NCBI RefSeq assembly: GCF_026015965.1
Contig: NZ_CP110383.1
Coordinates: 1,924,051 to 1,988,050, forward strand
Reading direction: 5' to 3'
Length of the DNA stretch: 64,000 nucleotides
Source of the DNA: Selenomonas sputigena
GTDB taxonomy: Bacteria; Bacillota; Negativicutes; Selenomonadales; Selenomonadaceae
Shown one piece after another: positions 37,801 to 53,331 of the stretch (positions are counted from its first letter, which is position 1; each line of letters starts with the position of its first letter). The position numbers and the translations under genes are program-made. The notes under the pieces are model-generated. The model worked only from the letters and a program-made list of their open reading frames with translations, had not been told where the DNA came from and did no database searches.

Positions 37801-37964
37801 GCATAGGCGAAATGCCAAATGCCGTCGAGCGTGCGGTAAAATGAGGACACGCCGCGCGCAAGCTCCGCTTCGTCGCGATAGAATACGTGGTCGCTGTGCG
37901 CAGGCAGACGGTTCTCTGCGAAGTAGCACGGATCTCTCAATTTCTCAAAGTCGAATGCAGCCAT
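34845..37964 (-). CDS. lacZ: Beta-galactosidase, GH2
   Basis: A 1039-residue LacZ-type enzyme, about the length of E. coli LacZ. The acid/base Glu is in IWSCGNESCGG and the nucleophile Glu in FICCEYTHAMGNSCGG; the N-terminal sugar-binding domain and the C-terminal small-chain domain (GYGPKENYIDRC) are present. It has no signal peptide, so it is cytosolic. The ATG follows GGAGGTTTCAC. It lies downstream of the transporter gene and splits lactose into glucose and galactose for the gal operon. Confidence 0.95.
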   Translation of the reverse strand: MAAFDFEKLRDPCYFAENRLPAHSDHVFYRDEAELARGVSSFYRTLDGIWHFAYARNTEHIPQGFEAADYDCRDWETIRVPAHIQMEGYGAPHYTNTTYPWDGHESIVPGEIPVRDNPVGCYVKYFAVPEDWERVYISFGGVDAALALFLNGHFVGYSEDSCTPADFDLTPYLVTGENKLAAMVFRYTSASWLEDQDFWRFSGIYRDVLLYTKPQHHIEDVAVRAVPLERDGYTHGKLDVHLTFGDAAEKHVEILLCDPEGDCVEGEKAVITEKSHAFSGEAACVRLWSAEHPWLYHLMIRVRDAAGALQEVVRVRVGFREFCIRDGVMQINGKRIVFKGVNRHEFDSDHGRAMDPALFEQDLIALKRANVNAIRTSHYPNSSRLYELADIYGFYVIDETNLETHGSWMKNGACAKDAHTVPGDREEWLPAVLDRAQSMYERDKNHPCILIWSCGNESCGGRIIYEMSEYFRRVDPTRLVHYEGIFWDRSYPATSDMESQMYTKAADIEAFLKEHRDKPFICCEYTHAMGNSCGGMHKYTELTEREPLYQGGFIWDFGDQAIRRRGRYGEDVFLYGGDFGDRPSDYNFSGNGIFFADRRPTAKLQEVKYNYQNFTLRPSWEGVEIENKSLFSYAGDYDLWLSLLLDGREIWQAYAGEHDVPPGETRFIKNRLPYAGEGEYVLTASLLVKEEEIWAPAGHEIAFGQAVVVPPEDAGTRLLDVLGFGVAAPAYMPLEASGSLRVVQGDINLGVQGEGFSLMFSSAQGNLVSYRHGGRELIEELPQPSFWRAPIDNDYGSGRMADTAQWKLASLYRRCTRIEYSVDGEDFETVKGFFGRRDERHAKRVTVRFTYALATEPAAACVVSYTAEASGEVGVTMEYEATEGMPEMPDFAMIFTLDTDYDRIRFYGYGPKENYIDRCCGARLGVYESTASDEVEPYLRPQETGNHCGVRWIEVTDHGGHGIRLAADVPFEASALPYSPHELENARHAYDLPRPQHTYLRASAGMCGVGGDDSWGAPVLAEYTYPNGKRSLSFTMKGI

Positions 37965-38077
37965 GTGAAACCTCCGATCTTGTAAAGGAAGCACGGATAA
38001 ATGCAGCCACCCGTCTTATCAGCGCTTCCGAAAGAAAGCGGCCGCCGCCGACCGCTTTCCCATCTCCTAAAATAGAA

Positions 38078-39499
38078 TCACTTGTTCATTTCATCCCATT
38101 TCTCTTCGAGTTCTTCCACGATGCGCGCGTGCTCCGCCTCCGTGAGCGTCACTTTCGCGCGGTAGAGAATCGTGCCGAGCAGAATGAGGGCAAACGGCGC
38201 AGCGAACATCACGAGCTTGAAGTGAAAGAGATTCTCCGGAGAAATCGTCTCCGCTGTCGCACCGCTTGTCATGCCGACCCAGATTGCGGTAAGGCCGATC
38301 ATGCCGCTCGCAATAGCACCTGCGAGCTTGTCCACCAGCGGACGCACGCAGAGGACAAGCGCCTCGTCGCGATGTCCGAGCTTCAGCTGCCCGTACTCGA
38401 CCGCGTCCGTAATCGTCATGAGCACGACGAGGAAGATCAGCGGCTGCGGCAGGGAGAACAGACCTGCGGCAAAGAGCGTCATAATGACGTTCGTGCCCGC
38501 CATCGCGTAGAGCACGATGCCGAGGAGCATGACGGCAACCGAAGCGAAGAAGAGCTTGCGGCGGCTGAACTTCTCCGTCAGCGTCGGGAAGAGTGCCACG
38601 GCGAGCAGACCGATGATGACATTGATCACGCCGAGGAACGAAAACTGCTTTGCATCGCCAAGCACATAGATGAAATAGTAGAGGTTGAAATTGTTGATGA
38701 CATTCTGACCGAGAACGAAGACAAGGTACGCAATCGCAATCCAGAGGAGCTGATCATTCTTGATGAGCACGGAGAACACATCTTTGAATGAAGTCTCCGT
38801 CTTGTTCTCGCGCAATGCGGAATCCTCTTCCTTCGTGCCAAGGCCGAGGATGATCGCCCCGAGAGTCGCGATGCCGCCGCCGACGACGGCAAACGCAAAC
38901 CAACCGCTCGAGTCACCGGCGCCGCCATTCTCGTTCAGCGAGAAATAGAGGACGACGGGCATGACGATCGCCGTCACCAACTGACCGCCGAACACCGAGC
39001 CGATACGCGCATAAGTCGCTGTCACCTCACGCTCATGCGAGTCAAACGAGAGAGCGGGAATCATCGACCAGATCGCAACATCTTTTGCCGAGTAGAACAC
39101 ATCCATGATGAGATAGAGCAGCGCGAAGAGGACGAGGTAGAGCATTGGATTCGACACCGTCAGCCCGCCCATATCCGTAAAGAGGATCGCAAGGGAAATT
39201 GCAGCAACAAACGCGCCCACAATCACCCACGGCTTGAACTTGCCCCAGCGCGTCTTCGTCTTGTCAATCGTATTGCCGATGAACGGATCGAGGAAGAGCT
39301 CGCCCACGCGCAAGACGAGGATGATTGTCGTCACAATGCCGATCATATAAGCATCGTGTTCGTGGTTTTCGGAGTGAAACAGATTGCTCGTGACAAAGAT
39401 CATGAAATACGTCGCGAGCATAGCATAGAACACATCATGTCCGAAAGTGCCGCAGGAATACGCAATACGCGGCCAGAATTTGCTCTTTTTGTCCGACAT
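38078..39499 (-). CDS. GPH-family sugar:cation symporter (LacS/MelB-like)
   Basis: A 473-residue inner-membrane transporter with about twelve helices of the glycoside-pentoside-hexuronide family. Markers are FGHDVFYAML near the start, LFLDPFIGNTIDKTKTRWGKFKPW (the conserved D-rich loop 2-3) and the central LFSLPQPLIFLVVLMTITDAVEYGQLKLGHRDEAL-type loop. It has no fused EIIA domain, unlike streptococcal LacS. Context with lacZ suggests lactose or another galactoside as substrate. Confidence 0.9.
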   Translation of the reverse strand: MSDKKSKFWPRIAYSCGTFGHDVFYAMLATYFMIFVTSNLFHSENHEHDAYMIGIVTTIILVLRVGELFLDPFIGNTIDKTKTRWGKFKPWVIVGAFVAAISLAILFTDMGGLTVSNPMLYLVLFALLYLIMDVFYSAKDVAIWSMIPALSFDSHEREVTATYARIGSVFGGQLVTAIVMPVVLYFSLNENGGAGDSSGWFAFAVVGGGIATLGAIILGLGTKEEDSALRENKTETSFKDVFSVLIKNDQLLWIAIAYLVFVLGQNVINNFNLYYFIYVLGDAKQFSFLGVINVIIGLLAVALFPTLTEKFSRRKLFFASVAVMLLGIVLYAMAGTNVIMTLFAAGLFSLPQPLIFLVVLMTITDAVEYGQLKLGHRDEALVLCVRPLVDKLAGAIASGMIGLTAIWVGMTSGATAETISPENLFHFKLVMFAAPFALILLGTILYRAKVTLTEAEHARIVEELEEKWDEMNK

Positions 39500-40603: not shown

Positions 40604-42565
40604 TTAAAACGGGCTGATCGTCTTCTCCTTCGCCAGCGGAATCTGCTTCATCCTCTGGTCGTAGTCTGCTGTCAGGTAGTCGCCCAAGAGGGCGACCTTG
40701 AACTTTCCCGGGTGGTCGTCGGGCAGGAGGTCGTTCGCCGTCAGCAGCATGTCGAGCGCGGGCGCGGTGCGCATGGCGGTCGCGCTCATGTGCATGACGA
40801 GGATCGCGCCGCGCTTCACCGAGCCGTCGTCTTCGTGCGTCAGTCTGTGCAGAATGCCGACGAGGGATTCCATCGAGACGGCATTGTAGTCCTCCGTGCT
40901 GCCGCTGCCGTTGACGACGTAATCGAAGCCGTTATGCAGAATGCTCGCGACGCCCGTGCGGCTCACGGCGAGCGTCGGCGGGCGCAGGATGCGCGTCAGG
41001 GCGTATCTTCCCGACGGCAGGCGCATGTCTCCCATGGTCAGCGCGAGCTTTTCGTAGGAGGAGCGCACGTCGAGTTCGTACGTCTCCTCGTCCATGATGG
41101 CCTTGTTCCTGCCGCCCTTGTCCTGCACGCACATGGGCGTGTGCGTATCCGTATGACTGCCGACCTCGTTGCCGTTCGCCACGATGGCACGCACGAGATT
41201 CGGATTATTGTGGATGTTCTTCGTGATGATGAAGAACGTGCCATGCACGCGATGCTTGTTCAAGACGGCGAGCAGATGGTTGATGGAATCGTCGCTTCCC
41301 CAGTCGTCAAAGGTGAAGAACACGGTTCGCGCGGGTGCCGTCTTGACGATCCCCGTCCTGTCTGCGCGGCGCATCTCCATGCGCGAAAAGCCGAGCATGC
41401 GATCCGTCTCGCCGACTTCGGGCGCACCGACGTAGCGCTTGTAGAACTCCTGCGAAAACGCGCCGCCCTTGAGCTTCTCCTTGCGGATATACGGGCGGAT
41501 TTCCTCGGGCAATGTCGCCGGATCGACGGGATATGTATAAAGAGCCGATGTATCGCCGAGAACATCGAGGACGGATGTGCAGGCGTAGCCCGAGGCTGCC
41601 CGCTCCCGCTCTCGCTCCTCAGGCAGGGCGTGCGTCGTATAGGCGATGTTGTCGACCTTCTCCCGCTTCAAGGTGCGCAGAAGCTCGACGGCGAGCGAGG
41701 AGTGCGTGTAGTAGTCCGTGCGCATGTAGATGATCTCGCCGCGATTGAACGACGTCGTCCAGCGTCCAAAGAGATCGGGCATGACTTCTTCGGGCGACTG
41801 TGCGTCCTTGTGCTTCGACTGCACGGCGTTGAATCCCTGCCCGACGAGGATGCAGCCCATCGCCGAAACGGCCTCGCCGATGGCCGGCTCATCCGCGCCC
41901 GACATCTGGCGCACGACATTCGTTTCCTGACCGTAGGCTCGAAGCCCTTCGCGGATGCGCTCGATCTGCGCACAATAGTCGTCGAAGCCCGCGCCCTCCT
42001 CAGGGCGAAGCCCGATGCCGAGTTCCTGTCCGTATGCGCGAATCAGCTCGATATTCCTCCGATTCCTCGAAAGCTCGCGCTCCGTGACGAAGAAAGTGCC
42101 GCGCATTCCCTGAGCCTTCATTTCCTCCAATATTTCAAGAAGCGGCGCTTCCTTCGACAAGCCGCCGAACGTGAAGATGACGGCGGGCTTCGTGCTGCAG
42201 ATAAAGCGCTGTTTCTCGGCGATATGCCCGCGATTCTTCCTGCGCAGCGCGGCATAGGCGCTCTCCTCAGCGCTCTCCGCGGTGCTCTCCTGCATCGTCT
42301 GTCCGCGCAAGCCTTGCGCTTCTTCCGCCTCGTCCGGCAGTTCCAAAGCTCTCCCCGCCTCTTCCTGCCGCGCAGAAGCTTCCGTGCCCGCGAGCGCCGC
42401 GAGTCTTGACGCTTCGAAGGCGGCAGCGGCATCGGCTCTTTCAGCCGCAGGCGCGGCGGCTGCCGCGGTGCTGCAAAGGGCGGCGAACAGGAAGGCCAAG
42501 GCGCAGAGCGCACCCTTCTTCCCGCTTCTTTTCTTTATCTTCCCATCGCGCATGACTGTTCCCAT
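40604..42565 (-). CDS. Exported protein with two NodB deacetylase domains, the first degenerate
   Basis: A 653-residue envelope protein. A signal or anchor helix lies near residues 20-40 (GALCALAFLFAALCSTAAAAA), then an Ala/Glu-rich linker to about 110. The first NodB-like domain (about 120-330) has FTFGGLS in place of TFDDG and LGIGLRP in place of GSHTxxH, so its metal site is lost. The second domain (about 410-640) is intact: FFTFDDWGSDDS, GSHTDTHTPM, RLPSGRYAL and ILVMHMS. It should remove N-acetyl groups from a beta-linked glycan. The start chosen follows AAAGGAAGAG, 13 bases after the GH18-like gene; it is the last gene of the exopolysaccharide operon. Confidence 0.85.
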   Translation of the reverse strand: MGTVMRDGKIKKRSGKKGALCALAFLFAALCSTAAAAAPAAERADAAAAFEASRLAALAGTEASARQEEAGRALELPDEAEEAQGLRGQTMQESTAESAEESAYAALRRKNRGHIAEKQRFICSTKPAVIFTFGGLSKEAPLLEILEEMKAQGMRGTFFVTERELSRNRRNIELIRAYGQELGIGLRPEEGAGFDDYCAQIERIREGLRAYGQETNVVRQMSGADEPAIGEAVSAMGCILVGQGFNAVQSKHKDAQSPEEVMPDLFGRWTTSFNRGEIIYMRTDYYTHSSLAVELLRTLKREKVDNIAYTTHALPEERERERAASGYACTSVLDVLGDTSALYTYPVDPATLPEEIRPYIRKEKLKGGAFSQEFYKRYVGAPEVGETDRMLGFSRMEMRRADRTGIVKTAPARTVFFTFDDWGSDDSINHLLAVLNKHRVHGTFFIITKNIHNNPNLVRAIVANGNEVGSHTDTHTPMCVQDKGGRNKAIMDEETYELDVRSSYEKLALTMGDMRLPSGRYALTRILRPPTLAVSRTGVASILHNGFDYVVNGSGSTEDYNAVSMESLVGILHRLTHEDDGSVKRGAILVMHMSATAMRTAPALDMLLTANDLLPDDHPGKFKVALLGDYLTADYDQRMKQIPLAKEKTISPF

Positions 42566-42578
42566 CTCTTCCTTTCCT

Positions 42579-43601
42579 CTACTCGCATCGTACATCGGCG
42601 AGGGTTTCGCTGCCGCCGAGCCGCCAGAGGCTCACCGCCTCGACGCCGTTTTCCGCCGCGAGCGTGATCCATGCGTTCAGCGTCTCTGCATCCGCATACC
42701 AGACTTCCCCATCGTGCCCGTCCGCCGAGAATGTGAAGTGAAGCGCCGCGCTCTCGGCGTCGCGCTCGGGTGTCCTGCCGTGCTTCTTCGCCAAGGCGGC
42801 CGCCTCCTTCTCCGTAAGGAAACGCGCCTCGCCCTTCTTGAGTCCGAAGAAGCCGTAATCCTGCCACAGGCAGCCGCCCGTTGCAAAGGCCGCCGCTTTC
42901 CTTCCGGGCAGGGCTTCCATCTTCTTCAGCGTCTTTTCGATGAAGTCGCGATCCGCCTTCGGACCCGGGCCGCTGTGCTTGCCGTGGAGGTTGTAGAACA
43001 TCACGACGTACTCGGCTTCTGCGGGAAGCCCCTCAAAAGCCATCGCAGGTTCGAGCACGACGCGAAGCTTCAGGCCGCGCTCTTTCGTGGCCTCGGCGAG
43101 CTTCTGAAGGAAGGCGCGGTAGCGCGTCATGATTTCTTCGTCCTTGCGGAAGTTCTCGTAGTCGAGTTCCACGCCCTCCATGCCGAACTTCTCTGCCGTC
43201 TCCGCCATCCGAAGCGCCTCTTTCTCGATTCCCTCGTCCGTCGCGAGGAGGCGGCGCAGAAGTTCCCTGTCCTTTTCCACATGCTTTTTCCCCATGATGT
43301 CATTCGTGAAGCTCAAGTACCGCTCGACCTTGCGAATGCTGTAGGCGTTTACGAGCGCCTGCACCTCCTGCGGCACATAAAGCTCGTCCTTCTCGTCGTA
43401 GCAAGCGGCGAAAAGGGCGACCTTCGAGAGCTTGCCGCGCATCGCGCGATAATCGGCGTCGCCGGCCGCCGCATCCCAGCGAACGTGCCAGGAGGAAAAC
43501 TCCACGGGCGCGTGCGGCGCACTCTGCAGCGGCTCCGCCTGTGCGCATCCCCCGAGGGAAAGCCCTGCGGCAAGAAACAGTCCCAACATCCACCAACGCA
43601 T
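42579..43601 (-). CDS. GH18-like glycosidase lipoprotein
   Basis: A 340-residue lipoprotein (lipobox LGGC near residue 19). The TIM-barrel of GH18 type is recognised by MEGVELDYENF, corresponding to DGxDxDxE with the catalytic Glu and preceding Asp kept and the first Asp changed to Glu. VEFSSWHVRWD at the N-terminus and VSLWRLGGSE at the C-terminus are like spore YaaH/YdhD-type hydrolases. In PNAG systems a hydrolase domain fused to the deacetylase (PgaB) trims the polymer; here it is a separate gene, which suggests the same role. The ATG follows AGGAGGGG. Confidence 0.85.
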   Translation of the reverse strand: MRWWMLGLFLAAGLSLGGCAQAEPLQSAPHAPVEFSSWHVRWDAAAGDADYRAMRGKLSKVALFAACYDEKDELYVPQEVQALVNAYSIRKVERYLSFTNDIMGKKHVEKDRELLRRLLATDEGIEKEALRMAETAEKFGMEGVELDYENFRKDEEIMTRYRAFLQKLAEATKERGLKLRVVLEPAMAFEGLPAEAEYVVMFYNLHGKHSGPGPKADRDFIEKTLKKMEALPGRKAAAFATGGCLWQDYGFFGLKKGEARFLTEKEAAALAKKHGRTPERDAESAALHFTFSADGHDGEVWYADAETLNAWITLAAENGVEAVSLWRLGGSETLADVRCE

Positions 43602-43628
43602 AAAAACAGCCCCTCCTATACACCACAT

Positions 43629-43657
43629 AGGGCGCGCAAGCTTCTCTCACGCGCCCT
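43629..43657 (-). terminator. GC-rich hairpin between two exopolysaccharide genes
   Basis: AGGGCGCG and CGCGCCCT pair around a 13-base loop with no strong T run. It may attenuate or stabilise the transcript between the deacetylase-like gene and the GH18-like gene. Confidence 0.4.
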
Positions 43658-43673
43658 CTCTTTGGCATACAAA

Positions 43674-46052
43674 TCATACGTATTCGAGGAACCAGCGCAG
43701 GACAGCGTCCCAGATTTCCCCTGCCCTGTGCTTCGCCTTTTCCCATCCCTTGTATTCGCTCGTGTAAAGAACGCGCTCCTCCTTGCTCTCGCGCCCCGTT
43801 TCCGTCAGGACGCGCACCTTCTTGAAGACGCCGTCGTAAACGTCGTCGGCGAGATTGCGCTGACTCCATGCCTCGCCCTGCCAAGAAGCGCCGAGGAAGA
43901 CCGCGCCGCGCTCCGTGCGGGAGACGGCGAGATCCTCAGGGCCCGTATGCCCGTCCACATCGACGCTCAGGCGGTCGCCCGAAAGATGAATCACGAGCCT
44001 GCACTTGCCGCGGCGATGGAAGCTCTCGCTTCCCTCGTAGGGAGCGGCGCCGTCCTCAACGGCAGCGGCGTACGTCTCGCGAACCGCATTCGCGCGTCCC
44101 ATGTACTCGTTGGCTGCGGCGGGCGATGGCGCATAGCGCGCGAAAGCCTCGTTTTCGGTGATTTTCGCCTCCTTGCGCACCTCCTCGACAGAAAGGATCT
44201 TCTCGCCGAGAATCACGGGCAGCTTTTCCCGGTAAAGCTCGCGCTTCGCGCCGCCCGCGATTTCTGTCACAACGAGTTGATCGTTGACGAGTGTGACGCA
44301 GACGGCGTCCGAAAGATCGGCGGAGCTTCTGAGGAAGATCTGCTGCGAGCCGAAGGCGTTGCCCTCAAGCTCCGCTTCAAGGCGGAGGTCGCGCAGATTT
44401 TCGACGTCCGTGAGGCGGGCGAGCGCCTTGCCTTCGGGCAGCGTCGTCAAGATCAGCGTCTCCTCGCGGGCTTCGAGCGCCCCTTCCTTGAGCTCCCAGG
44501 CGCGGCGTCCTTCCTCGCGCCCCTCGACGAAGGATAGGGCGCCGTCCGTATCGTAGTTGATGCGCATGAGCAGGTGATTGATCGGCCAATAGGGCTGCGG
44601 CTGCATGCGCGTGAGATCGTAGAGGCTGCTCGTGCGCTTGTTGAGCACGAAGCCCTCACGGTTGAAGTTCATAGGGAAGGAATCGCGAATCTCGCGCTCG
44701 TTGACGGCGCTAACGCGCGGATTGTTGCCGAAGCGTCCCGTATTCGCGTGCATGAGCACATGCGCCTTGGGCACATAGCCGAGTTCCTCGCCGTAGATTT
44801 CGCGAAGACGCGCGTAGTCGTAGGTGATGCGTCGCTCCATCTGGTGCTCACTCTCCGTCGGCACGCCGTCCTTGTCGCGGATATAGTCCATCAAGTAGTG
44901 ATTGTAGCGGCGGCCGAGACAGCCGCGTACCATATCAAAGCGCAGCGGGTCAAGCTCGCCGAGAAAATCATCGTAGCGATCGAAAACATTGATGTAGGCG
45001 AGACGGTAGCCGTTCGATCCCATCTCCCAGAAGGTCGAGCTTTCCATCTCATGCAAGTCCTTGGGATTCAGGAACTTCGTGTCCTTCTTGGCAAATTTCT
45101 CGGGATACGTCATCATCGTCGCCTTGAAGTTCAAATCCTCCATGATCTCCTGCGCAAAGATCGCCGTGTCGCGCCTCCCGTCCTCGAACATGAGGAAGAG
45201 CGATCGCTCCGGCAACGTCTTTCCCTCACGGTAGTAGTCGAGGACGTCCTGCTGCGAGATGGTCACATAGCCTTGGCTCTTGAGCTCGGCGAGATGGCGG
45301 CGCAGCTCCTCCTTGCCGATGAGCGTCGATGTATCGCCGTTTCGGTCGACGCCGAAGTAGGAAAGGGCGATGAAACCCTTGTCTTGTGCGCCCGCCGCTG
45401 CGGCAGCCGCCGGGTCGTACGTCTTGAACGTGAAAAAAAGCTCCATGAGCACAAAGAGCGCGGCGGCGATGCAGGCGAACTCCAAGGCGGTGCGCATCTT
45501 CTTGCGGCGGTTCTTGCGCCGCGTGAAGGCAGCGTCCGCAAGTGCAGACTGCGCTTTCGGACGCTCGTTCTGCGCTTTCGGCTGCGGCGGCGCCGTTGGC
45601 GGCTGTTCCTGCGCTTTCGGCTTCTGTGGCGGCACTGGCGGCTGCTGTGTTTGCTGCTGCGTTCTCGGCGCGGACTGTGCTGCCGGCTGCCGCTCTTGCT
45701 GGGGCGCAGGCTGCATTGGCGGCTGTGCTGTCGACGGCGGCTGCTCCTGCGACGGCGCGGACTGCATCAACGGCTGTTCCTGCGCTTGCGGCAACGTGGG
45801 CTGCATCGGCGGCTGCACCTGCGGCGATGCAGTAAACGGCACGACGGGAACCCATTGCGGACGTCCCTGCGCATCGGTCACACACATCAGAAACGGCACA
45901 CCCTGCACGTTCGGCATGCCGCTCTGTGTATTCGGCAGCGTACCCTGCACATCCGGCGAAGCGACAGAGTCCTCTGCCGCCTTTTGCACCTGCCGCTCCT
46001 GTGCCTGCGACAATCCTTGCTTCAAGCGCACAAATACACGTTTCTTCTTCAT
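43674..46052 (-). CDS. Membrane-anchored deacetylase-like protein with Pro/Gln-rich cytoplasmic part
   Basis: A 792-residue protein. Residues about 60-165 are Pro/Gln-rich repeats with QPPMQP-type words, followed by a basic RRKNRRKKMR stop and one membrane helix near 190-212 (FACIAAALFVLMELFF). The outer part (about 230-500) resembles a NodB/PgaB deacetylase domain, but TFDDG is MFEDG and the HxxxH site reads EMGSNGYRL, so the zinc ligands are lost. About 500-790 is a beta-rich domain that may bind sugar. The N-terminus is inside and the rest is periplasmic. It overlaps the synthase gene by four bases (ATGA), hinting at a stoichiometric partner, perhaps a PgaD- or BcsB-like accessory. Confidence 0.8.
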   Translation of the reverse strand: MKKKRVFVRLKQGLSQAQERQVQKAAEDSVASPDVQGTLPNTQSGMPNVQGVPFLMCVTDAQGRPQWVPVVPFTASPQVQPPMQPTLPQAQEQPLMQSAPSQEQPPSTAQPPMQPAPQQERQPAAQSAPRTQQQTQQPPVPPQKPKAQEQPPTAPPQPKAQNERPKAQSALADAAFTRRKNRRKKMRTALEFACIAAALFVLMELFFTFKTYDPAAAAAAGAQDKGFIALSYFGVDRNGDTSTLIGKEELRRHLAELKSQGYVTISQQDVLDYYREGKTLPERSLFLMFEDGRRDTAIFAQEIMEDLNFKATMMTYPEKFAKKDTKFLNPKDLHEMESSTFWEMGSNGYRLAYINVFDRYDDFLGELDPLRFDMVRGCLGRRYNHYLMDYIRDKDGVPTESEHQMERRITYDYARLREIYGEELGYVPKAHVLMHANTGRFGNNPRVSAVNEREIRDSFPMNFNREGFVLNKRTSSLYDLTRMQPQPYWPINHLLMRINYDTDGALSFVEGREEGRRAWELKEGALEAREETLILTTLPEGKALARLTDVENLRDLRLEAELEGNAFGSQQIFLRSSADLSDAVCVTLVNDQLVVTEIAGGAKRELYREKLPVILGEKILSVEEVRKEAKITENEAFARYAPSPAAANEYMGRANAVRETYAAAVEDGAAPYEGSESFHRRGKCRLVIHLSGDRLSVDVDGHTGPEDLAVSRTERGAVFLGASWQGEAWSQRNLADDVYDGVFKKVRVLTETGRESKEERVLYTSEYKGWEKAKHRAGEIWDAVLRWFLEYV
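45590..45830 (-). repeat. Low-complexity region encoding Pro/Gln repeats
   Basis: Imperfect tandem codons for PPMQPAPQQ- and QSAPSQEQ-type words in the deacetylase-like protein. This is a coding repeat, likely a flexible cytoplasmic tail. Confidence 0.6.
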
Positions 46053-47977
46053 GCTGCCCTCTCCGCCGCCTTGTCGAGTATGACGCGGCCATCCTTCTCC
46101 TTGTTCTTTTTCTTATTCAGCGCAGCGATGTCGGCGAGCGTCATGCGCGTACCCCACGTCGTCTTCCAGAATGTGACCCAGGCGACAGGCATCTGCCACA
46201 GGAGCACAGCTTCATAGTAGATGCAGAACCACATGGCATAGATCCACGTCGTACTGCGCCGGATGAGAAGCTGCGCCATGCTCATGAGGAGCGCCATCAT
46301 CAGCATGCCAACGACGAAGCTCACGGGGAAGACCCGATGCATGATCGGTACGTAGAGGAGGTTGTAGATGACGACGACGGGCGCGGCGATGGGCACGAGA
46401 ACGCCCATGTAGAAGCCGAGCGACATGAAAGGCTCCTTCTTCCACATGAAGCGGCTCGCGATCAGAGACTCGCGCAGCCAAGAGCGCTTCCAGCGCATCT
46501 GCTGGCGCAAAAACACGGAATAGGAGCGCGGCACGATCGTCATGCAGACGGCGGAATCCTGATACGTCGTGCGATTGTGGCGCAGGATGAAATTCGTCAT
46601 GCTGCGGTCGTCGCCAAACGTCGCCTTCTGTCCAAGAAAGCGCTGATTGAGCCACGCGTCCATGTATTTCAAAACGAGATCCTTGCGGTAGCAAGACAGA
46701 GGCCCCGAGAGGCAGGTCGCCGCATCGAAGTACCCCTCCGCCGCCTTCATGACGCGGAAGGCGATGGAGTAGCGCACCGCCTGCATCTTCGTCAGGGCGT
46801 TCGTGTATGTGTTCGCAACGTCCGTGCGCCCCGATACGCCGCCCATCTCCTCGTCCTTGAAGGGCTGCACGATGTTGCGGATGGCGAAGGGATCGAGGAA
46901 GCTGTCCGAATCCACGAAGACGAGCAGCTCGTGCTTCGCCTCCTTCGCGCCGCGCGCCATGGCGTCGCGCTTGCCCAGATTCTGCGGCTGCTGCAGGAAG
47001 CGGATGCGCTCAAAGACGCGGTAGGCGCTGTCATTCGTATCCGCCGCCTTCAGCTCGGCGATCATCTCCTGCACGCGCTCGGCGGATCGGTCGTTGGAAC
47101 AGTCGTCGACGACGATGACTTCGAGCTTGTCCACGGGATAGTCCTGGTTGATGCAGCTGTGGATCGTGCGCTGAATCCATTCCTCCTCATCGAAGCACGG
47201 AATGATGATCGTCACGCCGGGCGTATAGTCGGGATCGATGGGCACGGGGCGGTAGAACATCGCAAACAGGTAGCGCGTCAGAAGGAACGTCGCGGCAATG
47301 ATGCTGTAGAGATAAAGCCAGCGGTTGAACTTGAAATAGATGACGGATTCAGCTCGCATGAGCACGATGATGAGCGTGATGACGGCGAGGAAGAAGATCG
47401 CCAGCGTGAACATGTAGCCCTGCCTGCGTGCGGTGGCGTACTGAGCGAGCGACTTCTTGAACTCGATGCCGTAGAGCTTCTCCTCCTGCCCGAAGCTGCG
47501 CACGACCGTCGCCGGCAGCTTCTTCACCTTCATCTCGTAGCCCTCGGGCATAGTGCCCGGCTCGATCTCGAAGGTCAGCTTTACCTCGCCCGAAAGATCC
47601 GCCCCGCACGCATCCTTTTCCAACCGCACGAGGATGCCTGTCGTCGAGATGTCCACGGCGCGCGCCGCAAGCGTCCCCGCCGCCCCCTCGATCTTCACGG
47701 GATAGTCGACGAGATAGCGCTGCCCGTTCTTCGCATCCTGCTCATAGAGAACGTAGTCGTCGGACTCCATGGCGGCGGACGCGCCGCGCCGGCTGCGGTT
47801 GCTGCGATGTCCCGTCGCGTCCGGCACATGCGAGAGCAGACGGCGGTCCTCCTTCACCGTGTAGAGAACCTCGTCTTCTTGAGCCGCGCCTGTCGCCCGA
47901 TTCACCCTTGCGCCGCGTTCGGCAGCATCCATATCTTTTCCAGCGCCGTCTGCGGACGCATATCCCTCGTTTGCCAT
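46049..47977 (-). CDS. PilZ-GT2 polysaccharide synthase
   Basis: A 642-residue processive glycosyltransferase. Residues about 75-185 resemble a PilZ domain: the VDISTTG motif fits (D/N)xSxxG, but the RxxxR part is QRYLVD, so the second Arg is missing. Two helices follow (about 190-260), then the GT2 domain with VVVDDCSND, FVDSDSF, TFGDDRSMT and QQMRWKRSW (the QxxRW of cellulose, hyaluronan and PNAG synthases), then about four helices. It should polymerise and export a beta-linked glycan across the inner membrane. PilZ domains usually bind c-di-GMP; whether this one can is open. First of two translationally coupled genes. Confidence 0.9.
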   Translation of the reverse strand: MANEGYASADGAGKDMDAAERGARVNRATGAAQEDEVLYTVKEDRRLLSHVPDATGHRSNRSRRGASAAMESDDYVLYEQDAKNGQRYLVDYPVKIEGAAGTLAARAVDISTTGILVRLEKDACGADLSGEVKLTFEIEPGTMPEGYEMKVKKLPATVVRSFGQEEKLYGIEFKKSLAQYATARRQGYMFTLAIFFLAVITLIIVLMRAESVIYFKFNRWLYLYSIIAATFLLTRYLFAMFYRPVPIDPDYTPGVTIIIPCFDEEEWIQRTIHSCINQDYPVDKLEVIVVDDCSNDRSAERVQEMIAELKAADTNDSAYRVFERIRFLQQPQNLGKRDAMARGAKEAKHELLVFVDSDSFLDPFAIRNIVQPFKDEEMGGVSGRTDVANTYTNALTKMQAVRYSIAFRVMKAAEGYFDAATCLSGPLSCYRKDLVLKYMDAWLNQRFLGQKATFGDDRSMTNFILRHNRTTYQDSAVCMTIVPRSYSVFLRQQMRWKRSWLRESLIASRFMWKKEPFMSLGFYMGVLVPIAAPVVVIYNLLYVPIMHRVFPVSFVVGMLMMALLMSMAQLLIRRSTTWIYAMWFCIYYEAVLLWQMPVAWVTFWKTTWGTRMTLADIAALNKKKNKEKDGRVILDKAAERAA

Positions 47978-47985
47978 TTCTTCAC

Positions 47986-48918
47986 CTACTTGCCTTGCAC
48001 TGCCGCCGATGGCGCGGCGGGAACGTATCGAATTTTACGAAAATCATGAATATTGCCCGGCGTCTTTCCCGTGCTCTCCAGCGCCGTCAGCAGCCAGTCC
48101 AGTTCGTCGGCAGCGTCGACAGGCGCAGCCTTGCGTTCCCCGGCGGACTTGTCCTCCACGGTCGGCTGCTTGTCCACGGCCGGCCGCGCATCCTCGACGG
48201 CCACATCCTGCGCGGGGGCTTCGACGGGCACGGCGATGTCAATCGCGATGATGCTGCCCGCAGGCACCGTCGCCGCATAGGCGGCCGCGCCCGCCTCGTC
48301 CTTGAGCCAGCCCGGCGCGTAATGCGCGCTCTCCTTCACGGCGCACTCGACGCCTGCGGCGCGCAAGGCGCGCAGAAGCTCCTCGTCATAGACGGTGCGC
48401 GGCGAGCGAAAAAGTTTCGGCGGCGCGACGGCAAGAACCTCGACGACCCTCTGCGTGCGGCAGATCTCGGCGAGCAGGCGCTCCTGCGGCAATTCTTGTG
48501 CCGCCGCGACCCCCACGAAGGTGTAGTTGCCGATCTCCTGTCCCGCCTCGCGAATGAGCTTGATCGTCTCCGGCTGGTTCGCCGCGTTCTGCCCTTCGAC
48601 GAAGAACACGGCGCTCGCGCCATGCTTCTTCAGGACGTCGAGCAAACGCGCCGTCGTCGTGCGCTCGGGCAATCCGTCGATGACGATGGCGACATGAGGC
48701 TTCTCATCCCTCGTCACGATTTCCGCTGGCTCTACGCCTTCCTGCAGCTGCTCCTTGGCCGCTGCAATCTCCTCAGTCGCCTCATAAAGACTGCCAAGAT
48801 CGGTGATTTCCGCCTGCGCGTTCTTCGTGCCAATCACATGATCACGGAAGACGACGAGAGCGCCCGCGACGATCAATATGCCCGCTATGGCGAGAAGCCC
48901 CATCTTTTTCAGGCTCAT
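47986..48918 (-). CDS. YibQ-like divergent polysaccharide deacetylase family protein
   Basis: A 310-residue protein with one N-terminal membrane helix (MGLLAIAGILIVAGALVVF) and a periplasmic NodB-fold domain of the divergent YibQ/DUF610 group. HVAIVIDGLPERT stands in place of TFDDG with one Asp kept; IGNYTFVG stands for the GSHT site with Tyr in place of His; LFRSPRTVYD replaces RxPxG. Catalysis by the usual zinc mechanism is doubtful. The C-terminal 70 residues are Ala/Pro/Asp-rich. It lies eight bases before the synthase gene. Confidence 0.8.
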   Translation of the reverse strand: MSLKKMGLLAIAGILIVAGALVVFRDHVIGTKNAQAEITDLGSLYEATEEIAAAKEQLQEGVEPAEIVTRDEKPHVAIVIDGLPERTTTARLLDVLKKHGASAVFFVEGQNAANQPETIKLIREAGQEIGNYTFVGVAAAQELPQERLLAEICRTQRVVEVLAVAPPKLFRSPRTVYDEELLRALRAAGVECAVKESAHYAPGWLKDEAGAAAYAATVPAGSIIAIDIAVPVEAPAQDVAVEDARPAVDKQPTVEDKSAGERKAAPVDAADELDWLLTALESTGKTPGNIHDFRKIRYVPAAPSAAVQGK

Positions 48919-48965
48919 GCTCCGCCCCCTTCCTCAAAAATCCGCTTACAAAGCTCACCCCAAAC

Positions 48966-50267
48966 TCAAAGACGCCAATAGCGGAAGCCCTCGCGCTCCG
49001 CTTCTTCGCGCGAGTACATCCCCTTCACGTCGACGAGCAGATGCGGCCCATCCGCGCGGCACATCACACGCAGTTCCTCCCACGACAGACGGGCGAAGGC
49101 TTCATGCGTCACGAGAAATACGAGAGCGTCCGCGTCCTGCACATCGTGCAGCGATTTCAGGCTGAAGCCGTATTCCACGCGGAAAGCTGCCGCATCGACC
49201 TCGGGATCGACGGCGGCGAGCGTCAGATCGTACTCCTGCAAGATGCGATATACGTCGGCGGCGCGCGAATTGCGCATGTCGGGGCAGTTCTCCTTGAACG
49301 CCATGCCGAAAAGATGGACGCGCGCCTTGGCGAGATCAATCTTTGCACGCACAAGCTCGCGCACGACGGCATGGGCGACGAAGCCGCTCATGTCGTCATT
49401 GATGCGCCGCCCCGTCGAGATGAGCGGCGAATAATAGCCGAGATTCTGCGCCTGATAGATGAAGTAGTACGGATCGACGCCGATGCAGTGACCGCCGACG
49501 AGTCCCGGACGGAAGCCCAGCGCATTCCACTTCGTATCCATCGCATCCGCCACAGCCGAAGTGTCGATGTCCATGCGGTGAAAGACGAGAGCTAGCTCGT
49601 TCATAAAGGCGATGTTGATGTCGCGCTGCGCGTTCTCCGCGACCTTCGCCGCCTCCGCCACGCGAATCGACGGCGCACGATGCAGCGTCTCGACGACCGT
49701 GCCGTAAACTCCGGCGATCGTTTCAAGCGTCTCTTCGTCCATGCCCGAAACGATCTTGACGATGTTCTCCAAGCGATGCACCTTGTCGCCGGGATTGATG
49801 CGCTCAGGCGAATAGCCGATCTTGAACTCGCCGCGCCGCATGCCCGATTCCCTTTCCAGTATGGTGCAGCAGATGTCCTCCGTCACGCCCGGGTACACGG
49901 TAGACTCGTAGACGACGATGCTGCCCGGCTGCAGATGCCTGCCAATGACGCGCGTCGCCTTCTTCAGCGGCTTGAGATTGGGCGTCTTGTCGCCCTTGAT
50001 CGGCGTCGGCACAGCGACGACGATGAACGACGCCATGCGCAGACGCGCCGCATCCGCCGTAAAGTCGATGCGCTCCGCCGCGCCTTCTTCCGCGGCAAGC
50101 TCGCCCATCGGATCTTTGCCCGCGCGGCAGTCCGCGATCTTCTCCTCGTCGCTGTCATAGCCGATGACGCTGAAATGCCTCGAAAACGCCACGGCGAGCG
50201 GCAGCCCGACATAGCCCAGTCCCACGACGGCGATCTTCGCCCTGCCATCGTGCAAAAGCTCCAACAT
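48966..50267 (-). CDS. UDP-N-acetyl-hexosamine 6-dehydrogenase (TviB/WbpO-like nucleotide-sugar dehydrogenase)
   Basis: A 433-residue NAD enzyme that oxidises a UDP-hexosamine at C6 to the uronic acid. The loop VVGLGYVGLPLAVAFS, the motif YESTVYPGVTED, YSPERINPGDK and the catalytic cysteine in LVGGHCIGVDPYYF are typical. YSPERINPGDK favours the UDP-GlcNAc/GalNAc group over UDP-glucose dehydrogenase. It probably supplies an acidic building block to the synthase. The ATG follows GGAGGCAAACGC. It lies between the outer-membrane protein gene and the YibQ-like gene. Confidence 0.9.
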   Translation of the reverse strand: MLELLHDGRAKIAVVGLGYVGLPLAVAFSRHFSVIGYDSDEEKIADCRAGKDPMGELAAEEGAAERIDFTADAARLRMASFIVVAVPTPIKGDKTPNLKPLKKATRVIGRHLQPGSIVVYESTVYPGVTEDICCTILERESGMRRGEFKIGYSPERINPGDKVHRLENIVKIVSGMDEETLETIAGVYGTVVETLHRAPSIRVAEAAKVAENAQRDINIAFMNELALVFHRMDIDTSAVADAMDTKWNALGFRPGLVGGHCIGVDPYYFIYQAQNLGYYSPLISTGRRINDDMSGFVAHAVVRELVRAKIDLAKARVHLFGMAFKENCPDMRNSRAADVYRILQEYDLTLAAVDPEVDAAAFRVEYGFSLKSLHDVQDADALVFLVTHEAFARLSWEELRVMCRADGPHLLVDVKGMYSREEAEREGFRYWRL

Positions 50268-50302
50268 GCGTTTGCCTCCTTCTTTCCGCACTGCGTACTT
50301 GT

Positions 50303-52048
50303 TCAATCCTCATAATTTTTGAAATATCCCGTAAGCGACGCCCAAACGGTACGGCTGCGCCTCGCAGTATCGAGGTCGAAGAGATCGTAATACTCAAGCC
50401 CGAACATGAGATCCTTCTGCAGCGTGTAGGAGAGGCCCGCGCCCCAGCCGCGGAAGCCGCCGCGTCTCGGGCCGTCACCCGTCGCATCGTAGCTCATGTA
50501 ATCTGCCATGCCGTTCATCGTGTGGCTGACGTAGGTGGCGCTCGGCTGACGATAGTACTTGAGCCAGTAGGACATCGAACCGGGACGCCAGCCGTCGCCT
50601 TTCTTCGCGAGCGTCAGCACATAGCCCGTGCCGTTTCCCGCCCTGTGATCCGTGCCATGGAGAAGCATCGCGCCGAAATCGAAATCTCCCAGAGGTGCGC
50701 GGAAATTTCCCATGTAGATGTTGCGCGCCGCACCGTTGATCTTGTCGAAGCGGTACATGCCGGCGTCAACGCCGTAGAAAGGCGTATCGTAGCTTGCCGA
50801 AAGTGCCGCCACCTCGTGCGCCCGCTCGATCTTGCCGTAATGCAGCGTATAGCGGACGGGGTTTCCCATCGAGAGCCGCAGACCGCGGAACTTGCTGTCG
50901 TAGATATTTCCCTCGGCAAAATCCGCGCTGAAGACGCCGACGGTCGTATCAAAGATGCCGCTCCTGCCGGTCAGATAATAGCGGTCAAGACGGAGCTTGC
51001 CGTCGTCCGTGCCGCCGTTCAAGTACTTTTCGTACTCGATCATGCCCGCCGCATGCCAGTTGCCGTCGATGTCGTAATCGGGGAAGACCCGAAGGCGCAG
51101 CCGCGCACGGCTGTCGCCGCGCTCAATGCCGCCCGAGCGCGAAGCATCGGCACGCACCTCGGCGTCGACCTTGAGTCTCGGCTCAGGCTTCTCGGGCAGG
51201 AGCACCGACGAATAGAGCTGCTGCTCGGCATTCTCCTCGTCCGCATAGCCCATGAGCGCGAGATCTTCAGCGAAAGCCGCCCGAAGACGCATCGCCTCAT
51301 CCATGACGCCCGGCTCGACAAGCGGCTCGCCGTAAGAATACGCACCGCCCTCGCCTGCGGGGAAGGAGTCCGGTGCAGCCGGGACGGCAACGGCCACGGG
51401 CGAGGCAGGCGCACCTGCCGCAGCGTCTGCCTGCACCGCGCCTTCTCTTGGCGTCATGCGCAAGAAGACTTCCTGCCTGCGCTCCGAAACCTTCGCCAAA
51501 GCAAGCTCGCGCTTCTCGCGCCGCATCGTGGCGAGCGCGTAGTCGCGCGCCGCGAACTGCAGACGAAGACGCGCCCTCGACGCCTTTTCCTGCAGCGGCT
51601 GCATGACCTCCAAGCGGTTCGTGCCGCGCAAAGACTCGCGCACGAGGCGCTCCTCCGCCTGTTTCGCCGCCGCCTCGGCATCGGCAAGCGCCCTCTTCGC
51701 CAGGCGTTCCTGCTCTCGGTAGAGCTTGACATGCACCTCATCGCGCACGGCGAGACTCGAAAGACGCCCATATTCGTCCGCGAGCGTTCCCTGCTGTATG
51801 CGGTCAACCTCGTGCAGCCCCTGCGCCACAATGCGGACAAGCTCCTCGCGCGAACACTCCTGCGGCATCTTGCCCGCAAGATTGACATAGCCTTGCGACT
51901 CAAGGCGTCCCACCGCTTCATAGACCCAGTCGGGCACAGCCTCGGCGGCAGAAGCCGCTACCGGCAGAATGCCGAAGATCGCGGCACAGAAAACGCTTGC
52001 GCGGCAGGCATGTCCCCAAAACAAAGACTTTTTTTCCATTTCCATCAT
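50303..52048 (-). CDS. SLH-like/coiled-coil outer-membrane beta-barrel protein
   Basis: A 581-residue exported protein. The signal peptide ends near residue 33 (ILPVAASAAEA). Residues about 36-85 form one SLH-like motif (VPDWVYEAVGRLESQGYVNLAGK), which in Negativicutes holds outer-membrane proteins to peptidoglycan. About 85-200 is a charged coiled coil (LAKRALADAEAAAKQAEERL). From about 300 the sequence alternates as amphipathic strands to the end (VWASLTGYFKNYED), a beta barrel. It is the first gene of the exopolysaccharide operon and may be its export pore, like PgaA or AlgE; this role is inference from context. Confidence 0.8.
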   Translation of the reverse strand: MMEMEKKSLFWGHACRASVFCAAIFGILPVAASAAEAVPDWVYEAVGRLESQGYVNLAGKMPQECSREELVRIVAQGLHEVDRIQQGTLADEYGRLSSLAVRDEVHVKLYREQERLAKRALADAEAAAKQAEERLVRESLRGTNRLEVMQPLQEKASRARLRLQFAARDYALATMRREKRELALAKVSERRQEVFLRMTPREGAVQADAAAGAPASPVAVAVPAAPDSFPAGEGGAYSYGEPLVEPGVMDEAMRLRAAFAEDLALMGYADEENAEQQLYSSVLLPEKPEPRLKVDAEVRADASRSGGIERGDSRARLRLRVFPDYDIDGNWHAAGMIEYEKYLNGGTDDGKLRLDRYYLTGRSGIFDTTVGVFSADFAEGNIYDSKFRGLRLSMGNPVRYTLHYGKIERAHEVAALSASYDTPFYGVDAGMYRFDKINGAARNIYMGNFRAPLGDFDFGAMLLHGTDHRAGNGTGYVLTLAKKGDGWRPGSMSYWLKYYRQPSATYVSHTMNGMADYMSYDATGDGPRRGGFRGWGAGLSYTLQKDLMFGLEYYDLFDLDTARRSRTVWASLTGYFKNYED

Positions 52049-52340
52049 ATCAGGTTATTTTCCCCTTATTCTTTCTTTTTAATAATTATTACTCATAAGT
52101 TATATATTTAATAAATTATGGTAGGTTTTGGGAAATTCTACAATATTTCACCCGGACGTATTAAGTCTTTCTCTCTATTGATTATACAATATAGTATAAA
52201 GCGAGCAAATTTGCAAGGAATTATTCTCGCATTTCTTCTTTTTAGGACTTATAGTCTGAAAATATATGCTAGATATTTTTCCTATAAATATAGATTGTAT
52301 AGCGTTTTTATAGGGAGAAACCTCCTATCATATAGAACAC
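52049..52340 (-). promoter_or_regulatory. AT-rich leader region of the exopolysaccharide operon
   Basis: About 290 bases of strongly AT-rich DNA in a GC-rich window, without an open gene. On the minus strand TATAAT lies at 52181-52186 with TTGCTC 16 bases upstream, leaving about 130 bases of leader before the first gene. The composition suggests promoter complexity, DNA bending or silencing by a nucleoid protein. No known riboswitch was recognised. Confidence 0.5.
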
Positions 52341-52372
52341 AAAAGAGGGGGAGACTCTCATCTCCCCCTCTT
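52341..52372 (-). terminator. Terminator of the SIMPL gene
   Basis: AAGAGGGGGAGA and TCTCCCCCTCTT form a 12-bp stem with a 6-base loop; on the minus strand it continues TTTTG. Confidence 0.8.
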
Positions 52373-52410
52373 GCACGCTTTTGTCTTCCGACAAGCTTTC
52401 TTTGCCAGCC

Positions 52411-53127
52411 TCACTCGCTCAAGTAATACTCGATATGCACCTCGGCACTCATCTCTAACATGCCCGGCGCAATCGGCGTCGGAGCTGCATCGGCGGCCAT
52501 GAGCATCTTTGCGCCCGCGCTGCGCTCAGCAAACGGATAGGTGTTCTCTGAGACGGCCTTCAGTCCGACGACGCGCCTGCCCAGAGCGGCGGCAAGCTCG
52601 TCCGCCTTCTTTCGTGCGTCATTGACAGCGGCAGTCAAGGCAATCTTGCGAACCTTGTCTGCATTCTTCACGCCGAAATCCAGTGAAGATATGCTGTTCG
52701 CGCCATTCTTGAGCGCGAGGTCGATGACGCGGCTGACATCGGCGAGATTGTCGACGCGCACCGTCACATTGTTCTCCGCGCGGTAGCCCGTGATCTCATT
52801 CTCGCGCGTCTCGCGCTCATAAAGCGGCTGGAAGTAGTAGCCGTGCGTCTGGATGTTCGCCTCGGGGATGCCGGCTGCGACGAGCGCCCGCTGCACCGCC
52901 TGCGCCTTCTTCGCATTCTCCTCCTGCGCCGTCTTCGCGTCCGCCGCCTGCGTGACGACGCCGACCGAGATCGTCGCGCAGTCGGGTGCCGCCTCCGCCC
53001 TGCCCGTGCCGTCGACCATGAGGACGGGCGGCTCTGAAGTCTGCGGCGCTGCTGCCTCTGCCGCCTGCGGTGCGCACAGGAAGAGTCCCGTTGCGATCGC
53101 AGCGAGGAAGGCTTTCATCTTGTTCAT
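52411..53127 (-). CDS. SIMPL-domain (DUF541) exported protein
   Basis: A 238-residue protein with a signal peptide (MKAFLAAIATGLFLCAPQAAEA). The SIMPL/DUF541 domain is seen in VDGTGRAEAAPDCATISVGVV, GYRAENNVTVRVDNLADVSRVID and ALGRRVVGLKAVSEN. Relatives such as YggE/BP26 are periplasmic or outer-membrane rings of unclear role. The ATG follows AAAGGAGAG. It is monocistronic. Confidence 0.9.
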   Translation of the reverse strand: MNKMKAFLAAIATGLFLCAPQAAEAAAPQTSEPPVLMVDGTGRAEAAPDCATISVGVVTQAADAKTAQEENAKKAQAVQRALVAAGIPEANIQTHGYYFQPLYERETRENEITGYRAENNVTVRVDNLADVSRVIDLALKNGANSISSLDFGVKNADKVRKIALTAAVNDARKKADELAAALGRRVVGLKAVSENTYPFAERSAGAKMLMAADAAPTPIAPGMLEMSAEVHIEYYLSE

Positions 53128-53331
53128 CTCGATCTCTCCTTTTCTTTCCTAAATAGAAAATTTCCCTCGGTGTGTTTTTCCTCCGTGGATATGTCCATTA
53201 TAGCATGACTCCTGAGAAATACGAGTTAGAACTCTCTCACTCCCGCATGTAGTTTGCACATCGCCTGCATTACTGATATACTACAACAAGAAACTCGAAT
53301 AGATACAAAAAGAGCATCGGGAGGAATCATC

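Follow-up and report, generated by a model that had tools for sequence, protein, structure and literature searches.

A candidate exopolysaccharide operon of Selenomonas sputigena with an OmpM-family barrel and relatives across Bacillota

Genes and domains of the operon

The window analysed here, a stretch of 64,000 nucleotides from Selenomonas sputigena, carries seven consecutive open reading frames (ORFs) on its minus strand at 40604-52048. Their families support what the initial annotation had proposed: in a diderm Firmicute, an exopolysaccharide operon of the synthase-dependent type whose chemistry involves amino sugars, uronic acids and deacetylation. In transcription order the genes encode a barrel protein, a dehydrogenase, a carbohydrate esterase family 4 (CE4) protein, a fusion of PilZ to a glycosyltransferase family 2 (GT2) synthase, a PgaB-like protein, a glycoside hydrolase family 18 (GH18)-like lipoprotein and a two-domain CE4 protein. 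They are tightly packed: the junctions from gene 1 to gene 7 measure -4, +47, +8, -4, +45 and -17 bases, the last of which would change if gene 7 starts later, and a 72-base gap reported earlier was not reproduced. Relatives were taken from the best 80 of 111 stretches encoding gene 4 relatives in named genome contigs; gene 4 served to retrieve these loci, and a query with one CE4 protein can hit the ORF of another.

50303-52048, minus strand: gene 1, OmpM-family protein of 581 residues with signal peptide, S-layer homology (SLH) domain, coiled coil and C-terminal 16-stranded barrel (profile, model, structure search)
51794-51949, minus strand: SLH domain of gene 1, about residues 34-85 (approximate, converted from profile positions)
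50318-51175, minus strand: 16-stranded beta-barrel of gene 1, residues 292-577 (structure model; conserved residues common to OmpM)
48966-50306, minus strand: gene 2, nucleotide-sugar dehydrogenase with TviB as best equivalog score, below the model cut-off (Pfam/NCBIfam)
47986-48918, minus strand: gene 3, first CE4 domain, lacking zinc ligands, of a multi-domain CE4 protein (Pfam, alignment)
46049-47977, minus strand: gene 4, PilZ-GT2 processive synthase of the hyaluronan synthase/NodC branch (Pfam, NCBIfam, solved relatives, motifs)
47453-47722, minus strand: PilZ domain of gene 4, residues 86-175 (Pfam, 8.8e-8), with DxSxxG kept and the second Arg of RxxxR missing
46484-47221, minus strand: GT2 catalytic domain of gene 4, residues 253-498, with DSD, GDDR and QQMRW (Pfam, alignment)
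43674-46052, minus strand: gene 5, membrane-anchored PgaB-like CE4 fold without zinc histidines, CBM66/laminin-G-like domain and predicted C-terminal helix (profile, structure)
42579-43628, minus strand: gene 6, GH18-like, with an ELDYE core and a lipobox seen by eye (Pfam, weak; alignment)
40604-42595, minus strand: gene 7, second (ligand-less) and third (intact) CE4 domains (Pfam, alignment)
40736-41341, minus strand: intact CE4 domain of gene 7, TFDDW ... SHTDTH (NCBIfam, alignment)
52049-52410, minus strand: AT-rich leader and promoter region, in which riboswitch scans found no known riboswitch

Gene 4 is a PilZ-GT2 fusion, as first described (Pfam, NCBIfam). Its NCBIfam scores rank NodC (167 bits, cut-off 550) above PgaC (model PgaC_IcaA, 108 bits, cut-off 422) and CelA (38 bits), all three under their curated cut-offs, and the closest solved structures are hyaluronan synthases (HAS; 8smm, E = 2e-34; 7sp7, E = 6e-30), with cellulose synthase at 2e-3. 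The protein has the DxD, GDDR and QQxRW motifs of the HAS/NodC branch, and GDDR and QQxRW are kept in 81 of 81 aligned synthases. Because its best matches are NodC and HAS and these motifs are kept, gene 4 is placed in the HAS/NodC/chitin-synthase branch. Its PilZ domain retains D/NxSxxG and the first Arg of RxxxR, both present in 81/81. No Alg family was reported among the best 25 of the 26 NCBIfam matches of gene 4 or for the other six proteins, and Pfam and NCBIfam scans of all seven reported no PgaD/IcaD or IcaC family.

The annotation of gene 2 as a UDP-sugar dehydrogenase agrees with Pfam and NCBIfam. TviB, a UDP-N-acetylglucosamine (UDP-GlcNAc) C6 dehydrogenase, is the top equivalog for the window protein (below cut-off) and for seven of eight operonic relatives tested; the Lysinibacillus protein belongs to another subfamily, nearer UDP-ManNAc dehydrogenases.

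Gene 3, initially called YibQ-like, contains a PF01522 CE4 domain (Pfam, E = 2.8e-21); no YibQ-type family was reported by Pfam and this identity was rejected. Gene 7 carries CE4 domains as annotated (Pfam/NCBIfam) and scores best with PdaB-type NCBIfam models. Among 75 loci that match gene 3, genes 3 and 7 share one best-matching ORF in 46 and hit different ORFs in 29, a few of the latter being duplicates or broken frames, not clean splits (e.g. L056, L068, L074). The single-ORF proteins contain three CE4 stretches in Clostridium and Pelosinus, four in a Lachnospiraceae metagenome-assembled genome (MAG) and two in Lysinibacillus (Pfam). Genes 3 and 7 are therefore best read as one multi-CE4 protein that is split in the window, which replaces the earlier view that PgaB functions had been divided among genes. 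The third CE4 domain, at the C-terminus of gene 7, has FDDW and HxxxH in 27/27 separate and 34/34 joined proteins (the window is in both sets; the joined alignment covers only proteins of 800-915 residues, 33 out of the 46, together with the window). For the first two CE4 domains, paired histidines occur in none of the motif strings displayed, a partial set for the joined alignment. Judged by its motifs, the third domain of gene 7 is the operon's one canonical-looking deacetylase.

The deacetylase-like character assigned to gene 5 is borne out by its fold. Its N-terminal part resembles the PgaB N-domain (4f9j, E = 2.3e-12; TM-score over the target 0.77-0.80 with 3vus and 6dq3) and is followed by a CBM66/laminin-G-like domain (4b1m, E = 2.4e-8). 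Despite the shared fold, the metal site of PgaB and IcaB is not present. The alignment (n = 77) shows no variation in FEDG, in the N-G of the second motif or in an H and an N farther on; such conservation without the metal site suggests that gene 5 retains a function, but an altered one. The Pro/Gln-rich stretch by which the initial annotation described the protein is an N-terminal extension lacking in most relatives. Gene 5 (43674-46052) has 792 residues here, about 160 of them in this extension, which seems confined to this species group since relatives in the loci mostly have 550-675. For gene 6, the GH18-like assignment survives as a weak match below the Pfam cut-off, with DxE kept in 74/74 aligned sequences.

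Spread of the operon and the OmpM-family barrel

Gene context was counted in the 62 loci with at least 3.5 kb upstream, 40 labelled Negativicutes and 22 other Bacillota; the remaining 18, whose upstream sequence is shorter (6 Negativicutes-labelled, 10 other, 2 odd), were kept apart. Labels were assigned by hand from record titles, and the names of several MAGs among the loci are doubtful: L068 and L079 carry the label Acholeplasmataceae but group among Negativicutes in a tree of genes 4 and 5. Genera in the set include Selenomonas, Sporomusa, Pelosinus, Pectinatus, Dialister, Clostridium, Roseburia, Acetobacterium and Lysinibacillus. Same-strand clustering of the operon genes recurs across the 80 loci, far beyond chance. 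Genes 3-5 are found in 62/62 loci with context, genes 6 and 7 each in 60/62, and gene 2 in 38 of the 40 Negativicutes loci. Gene 4 matches with E <1e-260 occur in 20 of 60 related genomes, the window's own counted; of 250 genomes of the class, 56 contain gene 5, and its profile matches 8 of 398 genomes in a phylum-wide sample.

Most of the operon is also present in loci of Clostridium, Lachnospiraceae, Lysinibacillus and Paenibacillus, and it is therefore regarded as an old Bacillota operon. On the Paenibacillus replicon, a large plasmid typed as non-mobilizable, a CE4 gene is followed by those for the dehydrogenase (51% identity), the synthase (58%), gene 5 (36%) and GH18 (39%). Spread by mobile elements was rejected; besides this one plasmid-borne relative there were three Escherichia coli matches that cover only 29% and look like generic CE4 domains. 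In the tree of genes 4 and 5, Negativicutes and two odd MAGs lie on one side of a split with a support of 0.978, which is what vertical descent would predict. On these sequence comparisons the operon is a member of a Bacillota-wide exopolysaccharide family and not a one-off.

The structure model of gene 1 comprises an SLH region, long helices and 16 strands (mean pLDDT 82.9, pTM 0.54). A profile of 46 gene 1 sequences matches the OmpM stalk 8bz2 (E = 1.8e-4), in line with the SLH/coiled-coil barrel of the initial annotation, although Pfam did not call SLH. The best structural match is OmpM1 (Foldseek E = 1.1e-15; Z 27.4, rmsd 2.4, 279 residues; next Z 21.4), and many or most of the conserved barrel residues are common to OmpM. 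Gene 1 thus combines the SLH domain and the 16-stranded porin barrel of the OmpM family, whose members also bind polyaminated peptidoglycan. AlgE appears at rank 47 of the Foldseek matches; PgaA and BcsC are not among the 50 structure matches listed, which excludes nothing. PgaA joins TPRs to a porin of 16 strands; the 16 strands of gene 1 have OmpM1 as their best match. A Sporomusa gene 1 (L044:2572-5901), the only one scanned with Pfam, has an N-terminal region of tetratricopeptide repeats (TPRs) that recalls PgaA architecture.

The 46 gene 1 sequences are separated from 24 OmpM-like sequences, namely close relatives of gene 1 and five SLH proteins from its own genome, with a split support of 1.0 (FastTree) and an UFBoot value of 100. 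Supports are those of the trees as written; one branch after re-rooting gave conflicting values of 0.499 and 69. L119, which offers no usable ORF, was dropped from the tree set. Gene 1 is present in 40/40 Negativicutes-labelled and 0/22 other Bacillota loci with context, and, among the loci with less upstream sequence, in 4/6 Negativicutes-labelled, 0/10 other and 1/2 odd ones. Bacillota of these other groups count as monoderm. In 52 of the 56 gene-5-positive genomes of the class a barrel match lies on the same contig within 8.6 kb; the best match is on another contig in G486, G597, G599 and G632, whose assemblies are fragmented, and that of G597 is partial and so weak that it could be a paralogue. 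In G053, where the operon is scattered across contigs, the barrel close to gene 5 lies on its downstream side. In the phylum sample the gene 1 profile matches 10/398 genomes, three of them only in the helical N-terminal part.

From its trees and linkage, gene 1 is a separate, operon-bound group of the OmpM family, apparently derived from OmpM, the tether between outer membrane and wall. The initial annotation had named an OmpM-type fold as a finding that would refute its proposal. The fold is indeed that of OmpM, but the group remains separate and bound to the operon; the proposal is therefore redirected, not removed. The barrel may have been gained by Negativicutes, or the diderm lineage may have kept it while the others lost it.

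A genome of another class (L135, G333:C20:9500-24000) also has the operon including the barrel and may be another diderm lineage. In L034:4115-19782 and L074:7743-17826, gene 1 and gene 7 matches occur twice around the operon, as if duplicated.

c-di-GMP riboswitches in related loci

An Rfam scan of 27 loci identified cyclic di-GMP (c-di-GMP) riboswitches in four. Three are of class I (RF01051, above gathering score) and belong to the Pelosinus, Sporomusa and Acetobacterium set (L041, L054, L083); the fourth, of class II, is in Clostridium carboxidivorans (L086). All four lie 18-193 bases upstream of the first operon gene. These three class I sequences were used to build a GEMM-I model, R1. 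Over the window plus the 80 loci (1.57 Mb) it scored 14 hits, every one on the operon strand and upstream of the operon. Eleven are outside the training set, and all lie 18-193 bases from the first ORF except that in L092, at 812. Riboswitches for c-di-GMP hence precede the operon in 15 relatives, 14 of class I and one of class II. Conserved class I pairs are kept in 91.3% of cells; the alignment behind this figure had been fitted to the class I structure.

Fourteen of the 15 leaders have a terminator hairpin with a T-run, and the 5' arm of this hairpin is the 3' strand of the aptamer; no terminator was found in the L092 leader. As terminator and aptamer share this strand, ligand binding should block termination, and we infer that c-di-GMP would switch the operon ON. 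Other Selenomonas loci gave no R1 hit. The leader region of the window yielded consensus matches only in sigma-70 and terminator scans, and the window's own genome has 11 GGDEF matches.

By eye, L092:1726-2538, between riboswitch and gene 1, contains several head-to-tail copies of a short repeat. Thiamine pyrophosphate (TPP) riboswitches downstream of the operon in the Clostridium loci L077:15248-15355, L086:15240-15347 and L087:15151-15261 are apparently unrelated.

Proposed mechanism and alternatives

We consider it fairly probable that the operon encodes a c-di-GMP-linked, synthase-dependent exopolysaccharide machine of Bacillota, with five parts to the proposal. Gene 2, judged by its family, would make a UDP-amino-uronic acid, most simply UDP-GlcNAcA. 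Gene 4, whose motifs suggest its activity, would polymerise GlcNAc, probably together with the uronic sugar, and the chain would cross the inner membrane. Outside that membrane, as folds and motifs suggest, gene 5 and the two ligand-less CE4 domains of genes 3 and 7 may hold or steer the chain, the intact third domain of gene 7 may strip some acetyl groups, and the GH18-like lipoprotein may trim or free chains. In Negativicutes, family and linkage suggest that peptidoglycan-anchored gene 1 would provide passage through the outer membrane. Finally, c-di-GMP would turn the operon ON by riboswitch antitermination in Sporomusa/Pelosinus-type Negativicutes, Acetobacterium and one Clostridium, and elsewhere possibly acts through PilZ. 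The putative product is a partly de-N-acetylated amino-sugar polymer, probably of uronic character.

More tentatively, and with the balance slightly against it, we propose that Negativicutes recruited a copy of OmpM, their ancestral tether and porin, as a dedicated, wall-anchored exporter independently of PgaA, AlgE and BcsC while related monoderms run the machine without one, and that the conserved, zinc-less PgaB-like site of gene 5 (E-D-G-R, N-G-Y-R, H-x-N) is a CE4 site repurposed for a new activity on the polymer.

Several observations weigh against the proposed machine. The NodC score of gene 4 and the TviB score of gene 2 are below curated cut-offs. Gene 5 has lost its zinc histidine ligands, FEDG (77/77) and NG-Y-R-type strings replacing FDDG and HxxxH. 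The second Arg of RxxxR is found in only 2 of 81 PilZ domains (L065, L094) and not in the window, so that gene 4 does not show the pair of motifs (RxxxR and D/NxSxxG) of c-di-GMP-binding PilZ domains; direct binding of c-di-GMP, and with it sensing by this domain, is therefore doubtful. No riboswitch was detected in the window at gathering score, with lax thresholds over 51950-53300 or with R1; R1 gave no hit in 67 of 81 sources (window included, some incomplete), and 23 of the 27 loci scanned with Rfam gave no c-di-GMP riboswitch. Gene 2 is operonic in just 9 of the 22 non-Negativicutes loci with context, and 8 of 17 genomes with a gene 2-less locus have no relative above 40% identity. OmpM proteins are general porins and tethers in the portion of PMC10628300 consulted, and passage of polymer through gene 1 is a prediction from family and linkage.

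This last point leads to the alternative that gene 1 is a mere co-transcribed OmpM tether that strengthens the envelope or holds the polymer, export taking another route. The best structural match is a tether/porin, the conserved barrel residues are mostly those of OmpM, and the scanned Sporomusa version bears TPRs. We nevertheless find a tether role rather unlikely, given the separate clade, the 52/56 linkage, the absence of gene 1 from 22/22 other Bacillota loci with context and the fact that Pfam and NCBIfam recognise no other outer-membrane gene in the operon; gene 1 is probably the exporter of the polymer. With secretion itself putative, the SLH anchor of gene 1 and the membrane anchors on the modifying proteins would also suit a wall-attached or periplasmic polymer that is not released, but c-di-GMP riboswitches in relatives and an outer-membrane barrel suit surface matrix systems and a GH18 lipoprotein fits chain release, and we hold such a product to be quite improbable.

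The polymer might instead be an uncharged, chitin-like GlcNAc homopolymer, partly chitosan, with gene 2 serving another or an optional branch. NodC as the top NCBIfam model and a GH18-type hydrolase fit this view, as do the 13/22 non-Negativicutes loci without gene 2 and the 8/17 genomes without a close relative. It appears unlikely in light of gene 2 in 38/40 Negativicutes loci and in operons of Acetobacterium, Roseburia, Lysinibacillus and Paenibacillus. In 9 of the 17 genomes a relative of at least 50% identity is encoded elsewhere; the 17 represent the 20 non-Negativicutes loci without gene 2, less the incomplete L067, L082 and L089. Since gene 2 is not universal, the core machine must be able to do without a uronic sugar; this sugar is likely part of the polymer in Negativicutes and likely optional across the wider family. 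The initial annotation had viewed the operon as a mixture of poly-N-acetylglucosamine (PNAG) and alginate systems. The PgaB N-domain fold of gene 5 and the presence of a sugar dehydrogenase, PilZ and a barrel recall both, but a hybrid assembled in Negativicutes is highly improbable and was rejected: the synthase is NodC/HAS-like, the barrel OmpM-like, and the core operon is Bacillota-wide, being found also in Clostridium, Lysinibacillus and Paenibacillus.

No prior description of the operon was found in the open-access literature searched, which agrees with the claim that no described system matches it. Class I HAS and a UDP-sugar dehydrogenase form the hasA/hasB pair. The operon shares with this pair the GT2 branch (GDDR ... 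QQxRW) and a dehydrogenase in the same operon as the synthase; it differs in the N-terminal PilZ fusion of gene 4, in a gene 2 nearest TviB rather than UDP-glucose dehydrogenases and in its deacetylase, GH18 and barrel partners. Hyaluronan itself alternates GlcNAc and GlcA, and gene 2 looks to be of the GlcNAc type. PgaABCD and IcaADBC likewise have a PgaB-fold CE4 protein, hydrolase and deacetylase functions and a GT2 synthase, whereas here the synthase is nearer NodC/HAS, gene 5 has no zinc histidines and the barrel is of OmpM type.

The papers cited by accession entered the comparison in part, as did PMC7112194, PMC8461298 and PMC10202936. Veillonella parvula OmpM1 (PMC10628300) has the same SLH stalk and 16-stranded barrel; gene 1 forms its own clade, is bound to a polysaccharide operon and has a long coiled coil (TPRs in one relative) before the barrel. 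The pssA-E genes of Listeria (PMC4125290) also direct a c-di-GMP-linked, synthase-dependent polysaccharide in a Firmicute. That exopolysaccharide is induced by c-di-GMP, with the GGDEF protein PssE as receptor, a BcsB-like partner and a synthase nearest IcaA/HmsR, and the sections consulted make no mention of a PilZ-GT2 fusion of the gene 4 type. Clostridial ccsZABHI (PMC7710045) combines PilZ and GT2 in one synthase, but this is of cellulose type, with endocellulase and O-acetyltransferase partners and another gene set. For S. sputigena, the portion of PMC13339959 consulted describes pelF/pelG homologues and another four-gene cluster and does not mention the present operon; a Veillonella region with a CE4 protein is mentioned in PMC5491611.

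The operon amounts to a natural experiment on the diderm/monoderm divide, with one machine on both sides and, as the constant difference in these loci, one outer-membrane part; OmpM is a tether that figures in the debate over outer-membrane loss in Firmicutes. If gene 1 does export the polymer, it would represent a new origin of an exopolysaccharide channel. Through the riboswitch leaders, control by c-di-GMP becomes open to test in acetogens and Sporomusa-type bacteria. From the operon, a matrix polymer undescribed in the literature searched is to be expected in oral, rumen and acetogenic Bacillota.

In the window the operon is flanked by a SIMPL-domain gene upstream and a cytidylate-kinase-like gene downstream, neither of which we count as part of it. 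Farther along, a large ORF at 34845-37994 (1049 residues) looks by eye like a beta-galactosidase, with an apparent sugar transporter beside it at 38078-39499.

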